64,000 bases of DNA from Nafulsella turpanensis ZLM-10. GTDB taxonomy: Bacteria > Bacteroidota > Bacteroidia > Cytophagales > Cyclobacteriaceae. The translations under genes and the position numbers were made by a program. The notes under the pieces were generated by a model. That model did no database searches and was not told the origin of the DNA. It was given only the letters and a program-made list of their open reading frames with translations. The DNA is taken from contig NZ_ANNU01000030.1 of NCBI RefSeq assembly GCF_000346615.1, forward strand, positions 1-64,000, written 5' to 3'. Shown here piece by piece: positions 41,005 to 50,233 of the stretch (position 1 is its first letter; every line of letters starts with the position of its first letter).

Positions 41005-42519
41005 ATGGCCTCTCAGGAACTGGTACTAGCAGGATGGATAACGGTAAGCCTTTACTTAGCAGTAACCCTGTTTTTCGTTATTCGTGGAGCATCTAAAACC
41101 AAGAGCATTGCAGACTATGCTTTAGGCAACCTTGGCTTTTCTCCCTATGCCGTAGGTTTATCCCTGGCCGCTTCCATGACCAGCGCGGCCACCTTTATTA
41201 TTAATCCTGGTTTTGCCGCCTATGCCGGAATAAGCGGGGTGCTGGCCATGGCACTGATGCTCCCGCTCGGGGCTTTGGTATCGCTGGTGGTGTTTACCAA
41301 GGGCTTCCGGAAAGTAGGAAATGTTATTAAAGCCATGACCATGGCGCAGTGGATAGGGGCCCGCTATAAAAACGGTGCTTTTTCCATGTATTTTGCTTTT
41401 CTCTCCCTGCTGCTTATCACCTTTGTAGTGCTTATTTGTGTGGGCCTTACCAAAGTAATGGCCGCCATGCTCAACACCCATGAGGTGGCTACGCTGGTAG
41501 TGATTGTTTGTGTTATTTTCGGCTATATGATGTTCGGTGGCGCTAATTCCATGGTATACACCAACATGGTGCAGGCGCTGCTCATGATTGTGGTGGCTGT
41601 TATACTGCTTACTTCCGGGCTCGAGCATTTTAAAGAAGGCTTTGATGGCTTCCTGGCTAAACTGGCCGCCATAGACCCGCTGCTTGCCCGCCCCTTAAAT
41701 CCCGAGAGCCACTTATTCCGCGATATGTTCGAAGTGGTATTCTGCCAGATAGTGGTAGGGATTGCCATTGTGTGCCAGCCACATATTATCACCAAATCAT
41801 TGCTCCTGAAAAAGGATAGCGACGTTAACCGCTACCTCTTTACGGGTATAGTGGTGGAAATTTTATTCTTTCTTGTCGTAGCCGCAGGTTTGTATGCCCG
41901 CCTTTCCTTTCCTGACCTGGAAGTGGCCGGTGTGGCAATTTCGGTCGATGATGTCATTCCAACCTACGTACTGCAGGAATTTAGCTGGGTAGTGGGGCTG
42001 GTCGTTATTCTGGGGCTTATTTCGGCAGGTATTTCTACGCTGGAAGGTTTAATTCAGTCGCTTTCTACCACCATTACTTCCGATATTCTGGGTAGCCTGG
42101 CTACAAGAAGGGGCAAATCCCTTTCAAATGAGGTGGGCGTAAACCGTATGGTGATTGTCTTTCTGGCTGCTGTTTCATTCTTTTTCTCTTACCGCCAGCT
42201 GGTGGCACCCAATTTAAGTGTGGCCATTTTTGCCCAAAATGGAGTGTACGCCTATTTCTCGGCTGCTTTTATTCCCGTTCTGTTCGGTATCTTCTTTAAG
42301 CGGGTGCCATTGGCAGTGCCGGTGACAGGCGCCATTGCCGCCATAGTGGTGCACTTCGGAATTTATTACGGCCGGCTTACCCCCTATATGGAAGGGCCGG
42401 TACGGAACCCTGCCGTGGCGGCTGCTTTGGCTATTTGCGCCTCTACGCTGCTTTCGCTGGGGATTTACGGAATTCATATGGCCCGCACCTCTAAAAATGT
42501 TAAAGCCGTGAAAGTATGA
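41005..42519 (+). CDS. Sodium:solute symporter family transporter
   Basis: A 504-residue SSSF (APC/LeuT-fold) permease with about 13 membrane helices. The first-helix region (SIADYALGNLGFSPYAVGLSLAASMTSAATFI) carries the family's conserved pattern, including the Ser/Thr-rich start of the unwound helix. SSSF proteins take up small organic solutes such as acids, sugars or amino acids with Na+. It is the first gene of a seven-gene operon, overlaps the next gene by four bases (ATGA), and would import the small acid released by the periplasmic hydrolase (inference). Confidence 0.9.
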   Translation: MASQELVLAGWITVSLYLAVTLFFVIRGASKTKSIADYALGNLGFSPYAVGLSLAASMTSAATFIINPGFAAYAGISGVLAMALMLPLGALVSLVVFTKGFRKVGNVIKAMTMAQWIGARYKNGAFSMYFAFLSLLLITFVVLICVGLTKVMAAMLNTHEVATLVVIVCVIFGYMMFGGANSMVYTNMVQALLMIVVAVILLTSGLEHFKEGFDGFLAKLAAIDPLLARPLNPESHLFRDMFEVVFCQIVVGIAIVCQPHIITKSLLLKKDSDVNRYLFTGIVVEILFFLVVAAGLYARLSFPDLEVAGVAISVDDVIPTYVLQEFSWVVGLVVILGLISAGISTLEGLIQSLSTTITSDILGSLATRRGKSLSNEVGVNRMVIVFLAAVSFFFSYRQLVAPNLSVAIFAQNGVYAYFSAAFIPVLFGIFFKRVPLAVPVTGAIAAIVVHFGIYYGRLTPYMEGPVRNPAVAAALAICASTLLSLGIYGIHMARTSKNVKAVKV

Positions 42520-43457
42520 AAAAGCTCGCCCTCCTCCTATTGCTGATTCTGACTGGAACTGCTGGCCTGATGGCCCAGGGAGCTGCTCCTGCCCTTTCCT
42601 TCCGGGAGCAGCAATTGCCCGGCTCTGTTGAGCTGGCCTATACCGAGGGAGGGGAAGAGAATAAAGAAACCATCCTTTTTCTCCATGGCCTCGGTGGCTC
42701 ACGAGAACACTGGCAGCAGAATTTACCAGAACTGGCAGAGCAGTTTAATGTGCTGGCCGTCGACCTGCCAGGCTATGGTGACTCCTCTATTCCGGCCGTG
42801 CCGCAGGACAGCCTCCTGTATTTCTTCTCCGATGTCTTAAGCAGCTTCCTCGACAGTCTTTCCATTTCAAAGGCGCATGTGGTGGGGCATTCTATGGGCG
42901 GGCAGCTCGCCATGCTTTTTGCCCTTGAGCATCCGGAGCAGGTACAGAAGCTTATACTGGCGGCGCCGGCAGGACTCGAAACCTTTACCGAAGCCGAAGC
43001 GGCAAGCCTGAAAAAGTATGCGGCTGCTACCTTCCCTCAAAAGCAGCCCGAGGCACAAATAAGAATGAACTATGCCATGAACTTTTACCAGATGCCCGAA
43101 ACAGCGGAGCAACTGATACAGGACCGCCTGGCACTTAATGAGTCGGAGGCCTTCCCTGCTTATGCTAAAATACTGATAGAGGGTGTGGAAGGGATGCTCG
43201 ACACACCGCTTTTGAATCGCCTTGCGGAAGTAGAGCAGCCGACCTTGATTGTGTTTGGCCAGGAAGACAGACTGATCCCAAACCGCCTTCTTCATCCAAA
43301 CCTTACTACCGAAGCAGTGGCCCAAAAAGGGCTGCAGGCTATTCCGGAAAGCCAGTTGGAAATAGTGCCTGAAGCCGGCCATTTGCTGATGTATGAAAAG
43401 CCGGAAGTCTTTAATGAACTGCTTATTCAATTCCTGAACCATACAAAAAATAACTAA
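42516..43457 (+). CDS. Exported alpha/beta hydrolase
   Basis: 313 residues with a clear signal peptide (ends GLMAQ). Alpha/beta hydrolase fold: oxyanion motif FLHGLGGSREHW, nucleophile elbow GHSMGG with Ser126, acid in FGQEDRLIP, and His in EAGHLLMYEKPE. The GHSMGG type is common to ester, lactone and C-C bond hydrolases. It shares LLHPNL after the acid residue and a KL(I/V)L(A/V)APAGLE strand with the cytoplasmic hydrolase that ends the operon, so the two are paralogues. It would act in the periplasm on the compound delivered by the TonB receptor. Confidence 0.9.
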   Translation: MKKLALLLLLILTGTAGLMAQGAAPALSFREQQLPGSVELAYTEGGEENKETILFLHGLGGSREHWQQNLPELAEQFNVLAVDLPGYGDSSIPAVPQDSLLYFFSDVLSSFLDSLSISKAHVVGHSMGGQLAMLFALEHPEQVQKLILAAPAGLETFTEAEAASLKKYAAATFPQKQPEAQIRMNYAMNFYQMPETAEQLIQDRLALNESEAFPAYAKILIEGVEGMLDTPLLNRLAEVEQPTLIVFGQEDRLIPNRLLHPNLTTEAVAQKGLQAIPESQLEIVPEAGHLLMYEKPEVFNELLIQFLNHTKNN

Positions 43458-43482: not shown

Positions 43483-45921
43483 ATGAAACATATTGTCCTT
43501 TGTTGCTTCCTGGTTTTTTCCTGTTTGTCTCTGGTGGCGCAGGAACGAACTGTTCAGGGAAGAGTCTTCTCCCAATTAAATGGTGAGAGCCTTCCAGGTG
43601 TAAACGTTAAAATTAGAGGCACCAGCACGGGTGTGGTCACCGATATTAATGGTTTCTATGAAATTGCCGTGCCCGGACCTGAATCCATACTGATATTTAG
43701 CTATGTGGGCTATCTTACTGAAGAGGTGGTAGTAGGAGAGCGTAACTCCATTGATATATCTCTGGCTGAAGACCTGACGGAGCTCAGCGAAATCGTAATT
43801 TCCGGTACCCGGCGGGCCGAAAAAATAACGGAAACCCCGGCTACTATCCAGATTATAGGCGAAGAAGAGATAGCGAAGATTGCGACTTTTAATCCGGGCG
43901 AGCTTTTGGCAAGGGTGAAGGGCGTGGAGTTTATACGCGCCGGAGTAGCAGGCACGGGCATCAACGTGCGTGGCTTTAACAGTAACTTTAATGCCAAAAA
44001 CCTGCAGGTAACCGATGGCCGTTTCTCTACACTGGTGGCTACTGGCCTTCCCTTTGGCCCGCTGAATACCGTTATTAAAGAAGATATTGAGCGGATAGAA
44101 GTGGTGCTGGGCCCTAATGCAGCCCTGTTTGGCCCTAATGCGCACAACGGACTGGTTAATACCATTACCAAAGACCCTCGTACCAGTGCCGGAACCACCC
44201 TGGCGCTCAATGCCGGGAACCAGAGTATGTTCTCTGCCCGCCTTCGCCATGCACAGATCGTCAGCGGCGAATTCGCTTTTAAAGTAACCGGCGAATATAC
44301 CTCTGCCGAGGAATTTGAATATGCCGACTCAGTATACATCGACCGGAATGCAGATGGAATAAAGGAAGGTTATGAGGAATATCTACTGGATAATACTATT
44401 GAATTCATGAGAGGGGAAACAGCCCTGTATTATACCCCTGTAGATGGAACTGATTTAATTTTCCAGGCCGGGGGCTCTAACTCCACTTACCTCTCCCCAA
44501 CCAACGTAGGCCGTAACCAGATTAAAGACTGGAGAATCTTCTACACACAGGTGAAGCTGGTAAGCGACAACTGGTTTGCGCAGCTGTACCATACCTGGAG
44601 TAAAACTGACAGCACTTATTCCATCGACGACCGCACCAAAGGATACTACCGCTTTAAAGATACCAATCCGGAGCTGACGGAGGCCCAGCTAAGAGCTGCT
44701 TCACTTACAACCGGAGCACTCTTTCAGGATGACTCCCGCCGTTTAAATGCTGAAGTGCAGTACAATAATGACATCGATAACAACTTCTTTTATACGATTG
44801 GTGCACAATGGCAGCGCGATATGGCGAACAGCCTGGGCACCTACCTGCTCGACGAAAATGCCGAGGACTATATCACGGTTAACCAGCTGGGCGTGTATGG
44901 TCAGTTCGATTACCTCTTTGGCGATGGCTTTAAAGTTACGGCTGCTTTCCGGGGAGATAACCATGATGTGTATGGCTTCAACTTCCTTCCGAAAGTTGGA
45001 CTGGTGAAGAGTGGCGACTGGGGCGGTGTCCGCCTGACGTATGGTAAAGGTATTGCAGCACCCACCATCCTCAATATGTACGGAGACCTTTTTGGCGGCC
45101 TCATTCTCGGAAATGCCGAAGGCTTTACGCTGGTAGATGGCACCGTAATAGAAAAGCAGGAGGTAGAAGAAGTTCAGTCGTTTGAGCTTGGCTATAAAGG
45201 ACAGCTGGTACCGAAGAAACTGTTTATAGATGCCAACACTTACTACAACATTTCGGAAAATTTCCTGAGCCCCGTTACAGTCATTGGCGTTGCGGCCAAG
45301 CGCGGCGACCAGCCTATCTCTGAGGTACAAAGCGCCTACGCCATTTACAACGGCCTGGTGGCTACCTATGTCAACTTCGGAAAGTTTAATACCTACGGCT
45401 TCGACTTGGGCCTTAACTACTTCTTTACCGACGACTGGAGCATGGGTGCTACATATTCTTACTTCGGCTATGGCATTGATGAAAATAACCTGGAGAATGA
45501 CTTTGACAAGGATGGAAAAGTAACACCACTTGACCTGCTGGTGAATGCTCCGAAACATAAAGGAACCGCTTCCCTGAATTATATGGGCGATAAGTTCTTC
45601 GGTTCCATTTTTAGTCGCTGGGTACAGGAGTTCAATTACTATTCCAGCTTCCAGATTGCCTCCGAAACCATTCCAGGCTTAAAATACCGTGGGGTTGATA
45701 TTGTGGAAGATGCGCGCAGCGGCGATGCCTGGAACTATGGTCCGCTGGGAGGTTTCCTTACCTTCGATGTAAGCGCCGGCTACCAGTTTAACGATATGTT
45801 CCGCCTGTCGGGCCAGGTATCCAACCTGTTCGATACGGAGATGCGCGAGTTTACGGCAGCGCCTCCAACCGGCCGCCTGTACTCGCTCGAACTTCAGGTG
45901 CAGCTGCCGGCTATCGACTAA
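43483..45921 (+). CDS. TonB-dependent receptor with carboxypeptidase-like regulatory domain
   Basis: 812 residues: signal peptide (ends SLVAQ), carboxypeptidase-regulatory-like domain (about 20-105), TonB-dependent plug (ELSEIVISGTRRAEKITETPATIQIIGEEEI; about 115-225) and a 22-strand-type barrel ending in an aromatic-rich strand (YSLELQVQLPAID). It is shorter than SusC proteins and has no SusD partner, so it is probably for a small or lipophilic ligand rather than a polysaccharide. It is the third gene of the operon, 25 bp after the exported hydrolase, and gives the system its outer-membrane entry. Confidence 0.92.
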   Translation: MKHIVLCCFLVFSCLSLVAQERTVQGRVFSQLNGESLPGVNVKIRGTSTGVVTDINGFYEIAVPGPESILIFSYVGYLTEEVVVGERNSIDISLAEDLTELSEIVISGTRRAEKITETPATIQIIGEEEIAKIATFNPGELLARVKGVEFIRAGVAGTGINVRGFNSNFNAKNLQVTDGRFSTLVATGLPFGPLNTVIKEDIERIEVVLGPNAALFGPNAHNGLVNTITKDPRTSAGTTLALNAGNQSMFSARLRHAQIVSGEFAFKVTGEYTSAEEFEYADSVYIDRNADGIKEGYEEYLLDNTIEFMRGETALYYTPVDGTDLIFQAGGSNSTYLSPTNVGRNQIKDWRIFYTQVKLVSDNWFAQLYHTWSKTDSTYSIDDRTKGYYRFKDTNPELTEAQLRAASLTTGALFQDDSRRLNAEVQYNNDIDNNFFYTIGAQWQRDMANSLGTYLLDENAEDYITVNQLGVYGQFDYLFGDGFKVTAAFRGDNHDVYGFNFLPKVGLVKSGDWGGVRLTYGKGIAAPTILNMYGDLFGGLILGNAEGFTLVDGTVIEKQEVEEVQSFELGYKGQLVPKKLFIDANTYYNISENFLSPVTVIGVAAKRGDQPISEVQSAYAIYNGLVATYVNFGKFNTYGFDLGLNYFFTDDWSMGATYSYFGYGIDENNLENDFDKDGKVTPLDLLVNAPKHKGTASLNYMGDKFFGSIFSRWVQEFNYYSSFQIASETIPGLKYRGVDIVEDARSGDAWNYGPLGGFLTFDVSAGYQFNDMFRLSGQVSNLFDTEMREFTAAPPTGRLYSLELQVQLPAID

Positions 45922-46005: not shown

Positions 46006-46749
46006 ATGAACAGACTTCAGAATAAAGTAGCCATTGTAACCGGTGGCGCAAACGGTATTGGAAAAGTAACCGCCCAGAAGTTCTCAGATGAAGGTGCCAG
46101 GGTCATCATCTGGGACCTTGACCAGGCGGGCGGGGAAGCCACAGCCGGAGAAATACAAAGCAGGGGTGGAGAGGCTGTCTTCATGAAGATCAATACCTCA
46201 CAGTTTGAGGAGGTGGAAAAAGCTGCCCGGCAGATTGCAGAGCGCTGGGGGCGCATCGACATCCTCATCAACAATGCAGGTATTACCCGCGACGCTTCCC
46301 TTAAAAAAATGACTACTGAACAGTGGCAGCAGGTCATAGATGTAAACCTTACCGGTGTGTTTAACTGCACGAAAGTGATGTCGGGCTATATGGTGGAGCA
46401 GGGCTGGGGCCGTATTATCAGCGCCTCTTCTGTGGTAGGCCTGTACGGCAACTTCGGGCAAACCAATTATGTGGCGGCCAAAGCGGGCGTTATTGGCATG
46501 ACCAAAGTATGGGCCCGCGAACTTGCCAGAAAAGGGGTTACTGCCAATGCAGTAGCTCCCGGCTTTATTGCGACCGAAATGACCAAAAAAATACCCGATG
46601 AGGTGCTGAAACAAATAGAGGCAAAAATTCCTGTCGGCAAAATGGGCGAACCGGAAGATATTGCCAATGCCTATGTTTTTCTGGCCTCTGAAGAAGCACG
46701 CTACATTAACGGAGCAGTGCTGAGTGTAGATGGAGGCATGGTAGGTTAA
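46006..46749 (+). CDS. SDR family 3-oxoacyl reductase (FabG/PhaB-like)
   Basis: 247 residues, the size of FabG. TGGANGIG (12-19), NNAG (89-92), catalytic Ser at 141/142, Tyr155 and Lys159 in NYVAAK, and VDGGMVG at the end. SDRs of this type reduce 3-oxoacyl-ACP or 3-oxoacyl-CoA to 3-hydroxyacyl forms with NADPH, or run the reverse. As part of an operon with an acyl-CoA ligase and a KAS III-like protein, a CoA-bound substrate is likely. It is not adjacent to the housekeeping fab genes. Confidence 0.88.
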   Translation: MNRLQNKVAIVTGGANGIGKVTAQKFSDEGARVIIWDLDQAGGEATAGEIQSRGGEAVFMKINTSQFEEVEKAARQIAERWGRIDILINNAGITRDASLKKMTTEQWQQVIDVNLTGVFNCTKVMSGYMVEQGWGRIISASSVVGLYGNFGQTNYVAAKAGVIGMTKVWARELARKGVTANAVAPGFIATEMTKKIPDEVLKQIEAKIPVGKMGEPEDIANAYVFLASEEARYINGAVLSVDGGMVG

Positions 46750-46829: not shown

Positions 46830-47828
46830 ATGGAAAGAAAAAGAAATGCAGTAATACTGGCATCGGGGATGTATGTGCCGGAACAGGTAGTTCCTAACAG
46901 CTATTTTAATGAGATGCTGGGGCAGGATGTAGACAGCTGGCTCCGCGAAAATGTACATATTTATGAACGCCGCTGGGCTGCTGAAGATGAATCAACGTCC
47001 GACCTGGTGCTGAAAGCGGCCCGCCAAACACTGGAACGGGCAAAGGTAAAGCCGGAAGAGCTGGACCTGATTATTGTGGCAACGGATACACCGGAATATG
47101 TTTCGCCATCTACCGCCTCTAAAGTGCAATACTTATTAGGGGCAGAAAAAGCCGGTACGTTCGACCTGAATACCGCCTGTGCGGGCTTTGTGACTGCCCT
47201 CGATACGGCCAGCAAATACATCCGCGACGACGAAAACTATCAGAAAGTGCTGGTGGTAGGGGCCTATGCCATGAGCAAGTACCTTGATAAGACGGATAAG
47301 AAAACCGCCAACCTTTTTGCCGACGGTGCCGGTGCTGTTTTGCTGGGGGCCGAAGAGAACAGTGAGCGTGGCTTCCTGGCCAGCCAGCTAAAAACCCAGG
47401 GCCAGTACCACGACTGGATGGGCATTTATGCCGGCGGTACCAAAGAGCCTGTTACGGCCGGGGTTGTGGAGCGAAAAGACCATAAGCTTAAGTTCGTAAA
47501 ACGATTCCCGACGGAGCTTAACCCGACCATCTGGAGCGAAATGATACTGTCGCTTTGTAAGCGCATAGGCGTGGAAGTGCAGGAGGTGGATCATTTCTTT
47601 ATCACCCAAATCAACATTAACAGCATATGGGCTACGCTCGATAAGCTGGGAGTACCGCATGAGAAAGCACATACTGTTATGCACTACTATGGCTATACCG
47701 GTTCGGCCTGCATTCCTATGGCCCTCGACGAAGCCTGGCAGATGGGAAAGGTAAAGCGGGGCGACCTCGTCTTCTTTATAGGCTCTGGTGGAGGCCTCTC
47801 CTTCGCCAGCGCCGCCTTCAGGCTATAA
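46830..47828 (+). CDS. KAS III-like thiolase-fold protein lacking the His/Asn pair
   Basis: 332 residues with a complete FabH fold: N-terminal SGMYVPEQVV, nucleophile Cys117 in LNTACAGFVTALD, FADGAGAVLLG and C-terminal GSGGGLSFASAAF. The FabH motif with the catalytic His (PHQANIRI) aligns with FFITQININSI, giving Thr259; the motif with Asn (RYGNTSAAS) aligns with YYGYTGSAC, giving Tyr289. His and Asn normally bind and decarboxylate malonyl-ACP, so ordinary Claisen condensation is unlikely. Acyl transfer, thioester hydrolysis or a reversed reaction through Cys117 are possible. The alignment was made by eye. Confidence 0.85.
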   Translation: MERKRNAVILASGMYVPEQVVPNSYFNEMLGQDVDSWLRENVHIYERRWAAEDESTSDLVLKAARQTLERAKVKPEELDLIIVATDTPEYVSPSTASKVQYLLGAEKAGTFDLNTACAGFVTALDTASKYIRDDENYQKVLVVGAYAMSKYLDKTDKKTANLFADGAGAVLLGAEENSERGFLASQLKTQGQYHDWMGIYAGGTKEPVTAGVVERKDHKLKFVKRFPTELNPTIWSEMILSLCKRIGVEVQEVDHFFITQININSIWATLDKLGVPHEKAHTVMHYYGYTGSACIPMALDEAWQMGKVKRGDLVFFIGSGGGLSFASAAFRL

Positions 47829-47874
47829 AGCTAAGCGGCTTTGTCTCAATACTCACTACTCAAGACTTACGACT

Positions 47875-49362
47875 ATGGAATACCGGAAAGACTGGATAGC
47901 GCGTTGGGCCAGCTATCATCCTGAAAAGCTGGCGGTAAGAGAAAGCGGGACAGGCCGGAGCCTCAGCTATGGAGACCTGCAGGAGCTTTCTGCAAGAGCG
48001 GCCTCCTTCCTGCACACCAAACTTGGCCTGCAAAAAGGGAGCCGCATCGCCGTACTGGCCGATTTTTGCCTGGAATATATAGTACTCTTCGCGGCAGCGC
48101 AAAAACTGGGCATCATTCTGGTGCCCCTGAATTACCGCCTCACGGGGCGCGAAATTGCCTATATGCTGGACAACAGCCAGCCTGATTTACTGCTGACCGA
48201 TGAAAAGTACCTGCCTCTCCTGAACGGGCAAAAAGCGCTCGAGGAAATCAGGCATATTTTTAAACCTTCCACTTTCTCTGAAGTACTGGAAACCTTTGAA
48301 TCAAAGGACTATCCTGCAGAGGAACTTGGGGCCGACCACCCGCTTTTTATCCTTTACACCTCCGGTACCACCGGCTTTCCGAAGGGTGCCATTTACACCC
48401 ATGGGATGGCCTTCTGGAACAGCATTAATACCGCTACCCGGCTCGACATCACCTCGCAGGACCATACCCTGGTGTGTATGCCACCCTTTCATACCGGGGG
48501 CTGGAATGTATTTATCACGCCTTTTCTGCACCATGGCGCTTCCTTTACGCTCCTGCCAAAGTTCGATGCATCACAGGTTTTACAGCTACTGGAAGAGGAG
48601 CGGGCAACACTTTTTATGGCAGTGCCTACCATGCTGAAAATGATGCTGGAAGCGCCGGAATTTGAGCGACTGAAGCTCGAAAGCACCCGCTACTTTATTG
48701 TGGGAGGAGAAGCCTTGCCACTGCCTACTATCGAAGCCTGGCACGCTAAAGGGGTGCTCATCCGGCAGGGATATGGTCTTACAGAGGCAGGGCCCAATAT
48801 TACCTCCTTAAATCATGAAGATGCTACCCGCAAGAAAGGCTCCATTGGTAAGCCCAACTTTTATGTAGAGTACCAGGTAATGGACGATGAGGGAAAGCAG
48901 GTCGAAAAAGGGCAGAGGGGAGAGCTATGGCTGAGCGGCCCTATGATAACCCCCGGTTACTGGCAGAATGAAGAAGCCACCAGGGCTGCCATTGAAGAGA
49001 GGTGGTTTAAAACCGGCGATGTGGTGCGGGAAGACGAGGAAGACTTCCTCTATATCGTGGACCGGAAAAAGAATATGTACATCAGTGGTGGCGAAAATGT
49101 ATATCCGGCAGAAGTAGAGCAGTACCTGCTGTTGCATCCTTCCATTGAAGAAGCGGCCGTGGTAGGCGTTCCTGATGAACAATGGGGTGAAACCGGTAAA
49201 GCGTTTGTTACCCTGAAGGAAGGGAGCATGCTGGGTGAGCAGGAAATTGTGAGCTGGTGCCGAAAAGGACTGGCAAAGTATAAAGTTCCCCGCCATATCC
49301 ATTTTATGAGCGAGCTCCCCAAGAATGAAAGCGGCAAAATAGTCCGTAAGCTACTAAAATAA
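47875..49362 (+). CDS. AMP-binding acyl-CoA ligase
   Basis: 495 residues from the ATG at 47875 (MEYRKDWIARWASYHPEKLAV); upstream in-frame codons lie within the KAS III-like gene. It activates a carboxylic acid as acyl-AMP and transfers it to CoA. The P-loop motif YTSGTTGFPKGA is at 161-172, then YGLTEAGP, TGD and the hinge region, ISGGENVYPAEVE, and the C-terminal catalytic Lys488 in SGKIVRKLLK. All are intact, so it should be active. It resembles medium- to long-chain fatty-acid ligases. The last gene starts four bases after its stop. Confidence 0.9.
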   Translation: MEYRKDWIARWASYHPEKLAVRESGTGRSLSYGDLQELSARAASFLHTKLGLQKGSRIAVLADFCLEYIVLFAAAQKLGIILVPLNYRLTGREIAYMLDNSQPDLLLTDEKYLPLLNGQKALEEIRHIFKPSTFSEVLETFESKDYPAEELGADHPLFILYTSGTTGFPKGAIYTHGMAFWNSINTATRLDITSQDHTLVCMPPFHTGGWNVFITPFLHHGASFTLLPKFDASQVLQLLEEERATLFMAVPTMLKMMLEAPEFERLKLESTRYFIVGGEALPLPTIEAWHAKGVLIRQGYGLTEAGPNITSLNHEDATRKKGSIGKPNFYVEYQVMDDEGKQVEKGQRGELWLSGPMITPGYWQNEEATRAAIEERWFKTGDVVREDEEDFLYIVDRKKNMYISGGENVYPAEVEQYLLLHPSIEEAAVVGVPDEQWGETGKAFVTLKEGSMLGEQEIVSWCRKGLAKYKVPRHIHFMSELPKNESGKIVRKLLK

Positions 49363-49366
49363 ACTT

Positions 49367-50233
49367 ATGCTGATTGCTGATACCAAGTATCCTCTTCATA
49401 CCCGGATGATCAGCCTTGCAGAGGGACTATCCGTGGCCTGTACCGATGAAGGCCACGGATATCCGCTGCTTTTTATTCATGGCCTGGGGAGCTATATCCC
49501 CGCCTGGGCCAAAAACATTCCCTTCCTCTCTAATTATTACCGCTGCATCGCTATCGATTTGCCCGGCTATGGCAAATCTTCCAAGGCAGGCTTTAAGCCC
49601 AGCATGCATTTTTATGCCGATGTAGTGGAAGCTTTGCTGGATAAGCTGCAAATAGACAGCTGCTATCTGGCGGGCCATTCCATGGGAGGGCAGGTGGCTA
49701 TGCATGCCGCACTGCGTTTTCCGGAGCGCATCCAAAAGCTGGTGCTGGTGGCTCCTGCCGGTTTGGAAATCTTCGAGCCTGCAGAAGCACAGCAGCTTAA
49801 AAGCTGGTTTGAAACGGAGAAGGTATATGCTGCCGGGGAGGAAATAATTTCCCGTAATGTAAAGGCGAACTTTTATCACTTCCCCGCCGATGCGCAGCCC
49901 CTGCTAACAGACCGCCTTGCCTATACATCCTGTACTGATTACTATCCCTTTTGCGAAACCATTTCTAAGAGTGTATCGGCCATGCTCGGGGAGCCGGTAT
50001 ATGAAAAGCTCACTCATTTGTCTATGCCGGTGTTGCTCCTCTTCGGCCGGCAGGATGCCTACATCCCCAGTCCCTTACTACATCCCAACCTAAGTGTGGA
50101 GCAATTAGCCAGAGAGGCGGCTGCTAAAATGCCACAAGCCACCTTCAGGCTACTCGATCACTGCGGCCACTTCCTCCAATGGGAGCAGGCGGAGTTGTTT
50201 AATGAACGGGTGAGGGAGTTTCTGGGAGATTAA
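49367..50233 (+). CDS. Cytoplasmic alpha/beta hydrolase
   Basis: 288 residues, no signal peptide. Oxyanion motif IHGLGSYIPAW, elbow GHSMGG with nucleophile Ser105, acid in FGRQDAYIP, His in DHCGHFLQWEQAE. It is a paralogue of the exported hydrolase in the same operon (shared DLPGYGxSS, VAPAGLE and LLHPNL). The ATG at 49367 lies four bases after the ligase gene. A hydrolysis step inside the cell, on an ester, lactone or thioester, is inferred. OleB and meta-cleavage hydrolases share this fold, but neither identity can be claimed. Confidence 0.88.
   Translation: MLIADTKYPLHTRMISLAEGLSVACTDEGHGYPLLFIHGLGSYIPAWAKNIPFLSNYYRCIAIDLPGYGKSSKAGFKPSMHFYADVVEALLDKLQIDSCYLAGHSMGGQVAMHAALRFPERIQKLVLVAPAGLEIFEPAEAQQLKSWFETEKVYAAGEEIISRNVKANFYHFPADAQPLLTDRLAYTSCTDYYPFCETISKSVSAMLGEPVYEKLTHLSMPVLLLFGRQDAYIPSPLLHPNLSVEQLAREAAAKMPQATFRLLDHCGHFLQWEQAELFNERVREFLGD

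Follow-up and report, generated by a model that had tools for sequence, protein, structure and literature searches.

A KAS III-fold protein family with Thr and Tyr at the positions of the FabH His and Asn, encoded in catabolic-type gene neighbourhoods

The window, a 64,000-nucleotide stretch of the Nafulsella turpanensis genome, encodes a protein of the KAS III (FabH) fold which retains the catalytic Cys but carries Thr and Tyr in place of the catalytic His and Asn, and the same combination is found in every aligned member of a family that spans several phyla. In FabH, the Cys takes up the acyl group, and decarboxylation of malonyl-ACP falls to the His and Asn. With a probability of roughly 0.55, we read the Cys-Thr-Tyr proteins as a separate, catalytically re-purposed branch inside the KAS III family, serving the breakdown of an imported carboxylic acid and not fatty acid synthesis. 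The imported compound is probably a hydroxy acid derived from an ester.

Active-site positions of the protein

The gene has an intact frame with an ATG start, and its three active-site codons lie as follows.

46830..47828, + strand: KAS III-fold protein of the Cys-Thr-Tyr subfamily, 332 aa (PF08545, PF08541, PRK09352, AlphaFold, Foldseek)
47178..47180, + strand: codon of Cys117, the nucleophile position (invariant in 110/110 family members)
47604..47606, + strand: codon of Thr259, at the position of FabH His244 (invariant in 110/110; His in 22/22 outgroup proteins)
47694..47696, + strand: codon of Tyr289, at the position of FabH Asn274 (invariant in 110/110; Asn in 22/22 outgroup proteins)

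The protein resembles FabH in its fold (Foldseek E 6e-38), has both KAS III Pfam domains (PF08545 and PF08541, with Thiolase_N fitting far worse) and the catalytic Cys, and is about 30-35% identical. The protein passes the cut-off of NCBIfam PRK09352, a KAS III subfamily model (268.8 vs 249), which counts against the re-purposed reading, but at 231.9 bits it falls below the TIGR00747 fabH cut-off of 292.1. The predicted structure is a confident KAS III fold (AlphaFold pLDDT 95.7, pTM 0.93), and its top Foldseek matches in the PDB are FabH and BioZ. BioZ, the 3-oxopimeloyl-ACP synthase, which handles a CoA substrate, tops the listed PDB matches by TM-score (0.93-0.94), but the identity is just 27% and no biotin genes were seen in the operon.

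The active-site positions were assigned via phmmer alignments to FabH proteins in the PDB. The motif FFITQINI pairs with VPHQANLR of FabH, placing Thr259 at the His, and YYGYTGSAC pairs with YGNTSAA, placing Tyr289 at the Asn, while Cys117 falls in the nucleophile motif. The same three assignments, and with them the absence of the decarboxylation residues, had been made by eye in the first-pass annotation, which had also called the fold motifs intact and the gene not decayed; the alignments, the domain and structure matches and the uninterrupted frame agree with it throughout. A decayed FabH is ruled out by this frame together with the strong conservation of the family. The exchange puts a smaller residue at the His and a larger one at the Asn, which suggests that the Tyr ring may fill the space vacated by the His.

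FabH Lys214 and Arg249, which we take to be basic ACP-docking residues, align with Pro227 and Asn264, positions at which most canonical copies carry Lys and Arg. The loss of both is consistent with CoA and not ACP substrates. Since the His and Asn are gone, no malonyl-ACP decarboxylation is expected; a Cys-Thr-Tyr enzyme could plausibly form an acyl-enzyme and yet be unable to decarboxylate malonate, in which case the acyl group would have to pass to CoA, an alcohol, an amine or water.

PqsC of the PqsBC complex shows that part of this is feasible in the KAS III fold, as its Cys is acylated without need of the His (86.9 per s vs 76.6 per s in H269A) and the protein, with Val-299 in place of the Asn, still condenses (PMC4807248). 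The Cys-Thr-Tyr proteins might likewise be condensing enzymes in which an unusual second substrate supplies the groups that replace His and Asn, as 2-ABA does for the Asn in PqsBC. We consider this very unlikely, given that PqsC keeps a His essential for condensation, H269A nearly abolishing activity (PMC4807248), while the family has no conserved His for a PqsC-type Cys-His dyad, and given that the neighbouring genes encode importers and breakdown-type enzymes.

The His of CerJ and ChlB3 presumably sits at the FabH Asn position. These KS III-like acyltransferases do without the FabH triad and use Cys-His-Asp (PMC9573744), and they share with the present protein the fold, a retained Cys and the loss of the condensation residues. 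An acyltransferase or thioesterase of this type would take the acyl group from CoA onto Cys117 and pass it on, the acceptor being an alcohol, an amine, a carrier or water. It is an improbable account of the family, as Tyr289 stands at the presumed His position with no Asp at +5 or +6, and no carrier protein or acceptor-building genes were recognised in the operon.

Degradative thiolases are distinguished by a GHP motif and a second Cys, neither of which is among the conserved positions of the family. CerJ, PqsC and the thiolases are thus ruled out as groups to which the family could belong, their defining residues being absent. Ser92 is tentatively placed as the equivalent of OleA Glu117, a residue from the partner chain. 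From residue comparison, membership of the OleA group also appears unlikely.

Extent and invariance of the family

A scan of the genome collection yielded at least 571 stretches encoding a relative, of which 80 were kept; the scan was biased, as one of its two patterns included the Tyr motif. The kept relatives come from Bacteroidota, Chlorobiota, Ignavibacteriota, Kapabacteria and Calditrichota. Cys, Thr and Tyr were invariant in 90 of 90 members and remained so in 110 of 110 after 20 more had been added, which were picked by full-length similarity score and not by motif, 19 of them at 46-57% identity. The 110 aligned members are mostly Bacteroidota, with Ignavibacteriota, Chlorobiota and Calditrichota also represented, and relatives are 46-80% identical. 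A copy on a Chloroflexota plasmid, 43% identical, has the three residues as well. Judged from these alignments, the replacement of His and Asn is fixed family-wide and is not an oddity of a single gene. The Gly-rich loop is conserved alongside Cys117.

The first-pass annotation had proposed that its reading would fall if homologues mostly carried the normal triad, or if another His and Asn of the protein took the catalytic places. Within the family, the normal triad occurs in 0 of 110 members, and it is the homologues outside that have it: His and Asn are present in all 22 examined, 18 of them fetched below the score gap and four being paralogues from the same genome. As for a substitute His, none is invariant among the 110 aligned members and none reaches 97% conservation; His218, which comes nearest, is missing in deep members. 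Takeover of catalysis by another His is therefore ruled out at the sequence level.

The family is well delimited. Its members score at least 311 bits and the next matches, FabH proteins, about 202 at most, and in the tree it forms a single clade with a support of 100/100 on a long stem of 1.16 changes per column. Whole-genome searches found close relatives patchily distributed across the order; at the level of the phylum, 57 of the 396 genomes sampled had one. The Nafulsella turpanensis genome itself keeps a canonical FabH, and beside one FabH gene (L002) lie ORFs that by eye resemble DUF177, EF-P and a biotin carrier.

Two damaged copies are exceptions to the intact conservation, through sequencing error or decay: one is split into two frames (L013 and L014, G003:C368), and the other, G567:C3:7533-8513, has one internal TAA.

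A further KAS III-like protein, of the PRK06840 family (NF005308), lies in the same cluster as the family gene at three loci (L085:9646-10659, L117:1439-2443 and L118:10082-11095). It is 21-25% identical to the window protein and carries a His where the latter has Tyr289, at the FabH Asn position. Its presence, and the loss of two of three triad residues, would fit a structural role without catalysis, like that of PqsB towards PqsC. That role is highly unlikely in view of the conserved Cys117 and Gly-rich loop, and most loci lack a second KAS III-like protein.

Gene neighbourhood

In the window, the KAS III-like gene is accompanied by the following genes.

41005..42519, + strand: SSS-family Na+/solute symporter, weakly PanF-like (Pfam, NCBIfam, recurrence)
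42516..43457, + strand: alpha/beta-hydrolase with an N-terminal signal-like stretch, probably secreted (Pfam, N-terminus)
43483..45921, + strand: TonB-dependent outer-membrane receptor with a CarbopepD_reg domain (Pfam; recurs beside the KAS III gene)
46006..46749, + strand: FabG-like SDR of NAD type (Asp37), probable (R)-3-hydroxyacyl-CoA dehydrogenase (domain and profile matches, PDB neighbours, Asp37)
47875..49362, + strand: acyl-CoA ligase, AMP-binding (PF00501, PF13193; nearest PDB entries FadD13 and feruloyl-CoA synthetase)
49367..50233, + strand: alpha/beta-hydrolase without an obvious signal peptide (Ser105-Asp230-His268)

The mechanically called ligase ORF (47788-49362) begins at a GTG within the KAS III gene, and the ATG at 47875 is likely the true start. 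The ligase best matches PRK06839, numbered next to PRK06840, which may point to a related set of genes elsewhere. The symporter gave no PDB match that would indicate its specificity, and among the PDB entries nearest to the FabG are another FabG and a (3R)-hydroxyacyl-CoA dehydrogenase.

The neighbourhood was surveyed at 80 loci, some of them ended early by contig ends. Each locus has most or all of the usual partners: a FabG-type SDR, an SSS symporter (replaced by an MFS transporter in nine loci), an acyl-CoA ligase and an alpha/beta-hydrolase, together with either a TonB receptor or an outer-membrane protein paired with a lipoprotein. Most neighbours share the strand of the KAS III gene and lie close to it (median gaps 39 and 21.5 bp); in 31 of the 74 loci counted, the gene immediately upstream encodes the FabG-type SDR. 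By a crude count, 37 of 50 cluster hydrolases have a hydrophobic signal-like N-terminus. At L050:14081-16591, lipoprotein-like and outer-membrane-like genes, both without a Pfam match, replace the TonB receptor; such pairs were seen in Bacteroidales- and Ignavibacteria-type clusters. Many clusters also hold a protein of about 478 aa near FabG (L064:6343-7776 and members in 27 other loci), for which no Pfam match was found in the single member tested.

An Asp at the end of the second strand is a mark of NAD-dependent SDRs. This Asp (Asp37) is present in 63 of 63 FabG copies in the clusters and absent from that position in the closest other FabG of the Nafulsella genome. The operon of ligase, reductase and hydrolases reported in the first-pass annotation is present and recurs in dozens of genomes, but because of the NAD-type Asp37 and the nearby importers its "reductase" is better read as a dehydrogenase of breakdown.

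The Chloroflexota plasmid cluster (L145, CP069395) has a CoA-transferase in place of the ligase and an ABC system with a periplasmic binding protein in place of the symporter, and also holds an SCP2-type thiolase, a DUF35 protein and a hydrolase. These two swaps point to a carboxylate as the substrate. What the clusters share is genes for taking up an organic acid, converting it to a CoA thioester and oxidising it, and from gene content the conserved neighbourhood looks catabolic and not like one of fatty acid synthesis.

A KAS III, a ligase, an SDR and a hydrolase are also the protein classes of OleA, C, D and B, and a beta-lactone or olefin pathway could be proposed from this match of four classes. 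Such a pathway is extremely unlikely here. According to titles cited in PMC7064751, OleA relies on Glu117 and His285, whereas the family has no His and apparently no such Glu; moreover, the hydrolase retains its Ser nucleophile, the SDR is FabG-type and the cluster includes importers.

Possible chemistry and meaning

In the pathway that we propose, the alpha/beta-hydrolase, usually secreted, would release a hydroxy acid from an ester, which would be imported through the TonB receptor or outer-membrane protein together with an SSS, MFS or ABC transporter. A ligase or CoA-transferase would form the CoA thioester, from which the NAD-type FabG would make the 3-keto form by oxidising the 3-hydroxyl. 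The KAS III-like protein would then load an acyl group on Cys117 and pass it to an acceptor, most likely CoA; possible roles of Thr259 and Tyr289 are binding or protonation of the substrate at its carbonyl or enolate end. Thiolases would complete the conversion to acetyl-CoA. Between the acyltransferase, thioesterase and retro-acting roles suggested in the first-pass annotation, sequence and gene context do not discriminate. The direction is read from the cofactor motif and the importers only, and FabG is reversible. One guess for the substrate is oligomers of (R)-3-hydroxybutyrate; no type I PHA synthase was found in this genome, so a PHB substrate would probably come from outside.

A special form of this explanation is a thiolase-like retro-Claisen reaction. 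FabG would supply a 3-ketoacyl-CoA whose keto carbon is attacked by Cys117, Tyr289 would protonate the leaving enolate, and CoA would free the shortened acyl-CoA. It fits the FabG neighbour and its NAD-type motif directly, and lyases of the thiolase fold with repurposed active-site residues, including Tyr, are known in Sal and Ltp2 (PMC12329534). These steroid aldolases offer a precedent for Tyr as acid/base by analogy only, as they are catabolic lyases of the thiolase superfamily but belong to another subfamily, have their Tyr at a different site and have a DUF35 partner. We regard the retro-Claisen form as unlikely: no general base for CoA activation is apparent, and the enzyme would be redundant with the AtoB/PhaA-type thiolase near FabG in about 18 loci, whose motifs are intact, and with another encoded elsewhere in the Nafulsella genome. 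That co-encoded or genomic thiolases could already perform the last step also speaks against our preferred reading of a re-purposed branch in acid breakdown. More tentatively, the family might represent a new catalytic type in the thiolase superfamily, Cys-Thr-Tyr without a histidine, cleaving or transferring acyl groups by a retro-Claisen reaction or ester thiolysis in an undescribed, multi-phylum pathway for uptake and breakdown of hydroxy-acid esters.

Literature searches found no paper on a Cys-Thr-Tyr KAS III family. Automatic annotation gives the family the name of an enzyme of fatty acid synthesis, ketoacyl-ACP synthase III, which is probably wrong; with the FabH His and Asn absent and a context unlike fatty acid synthesis, we would not file the family as a beta-ketoacyl-ACP synthase. 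The family probably performs a different reaction from FabH. Should the family carry out other chemistry, many genomes would be misannotated and a whole catabolic pathway would have been missed, and the family offers a clean test of what the KAS III fold is capable of without the decarboxylating His and Asn.
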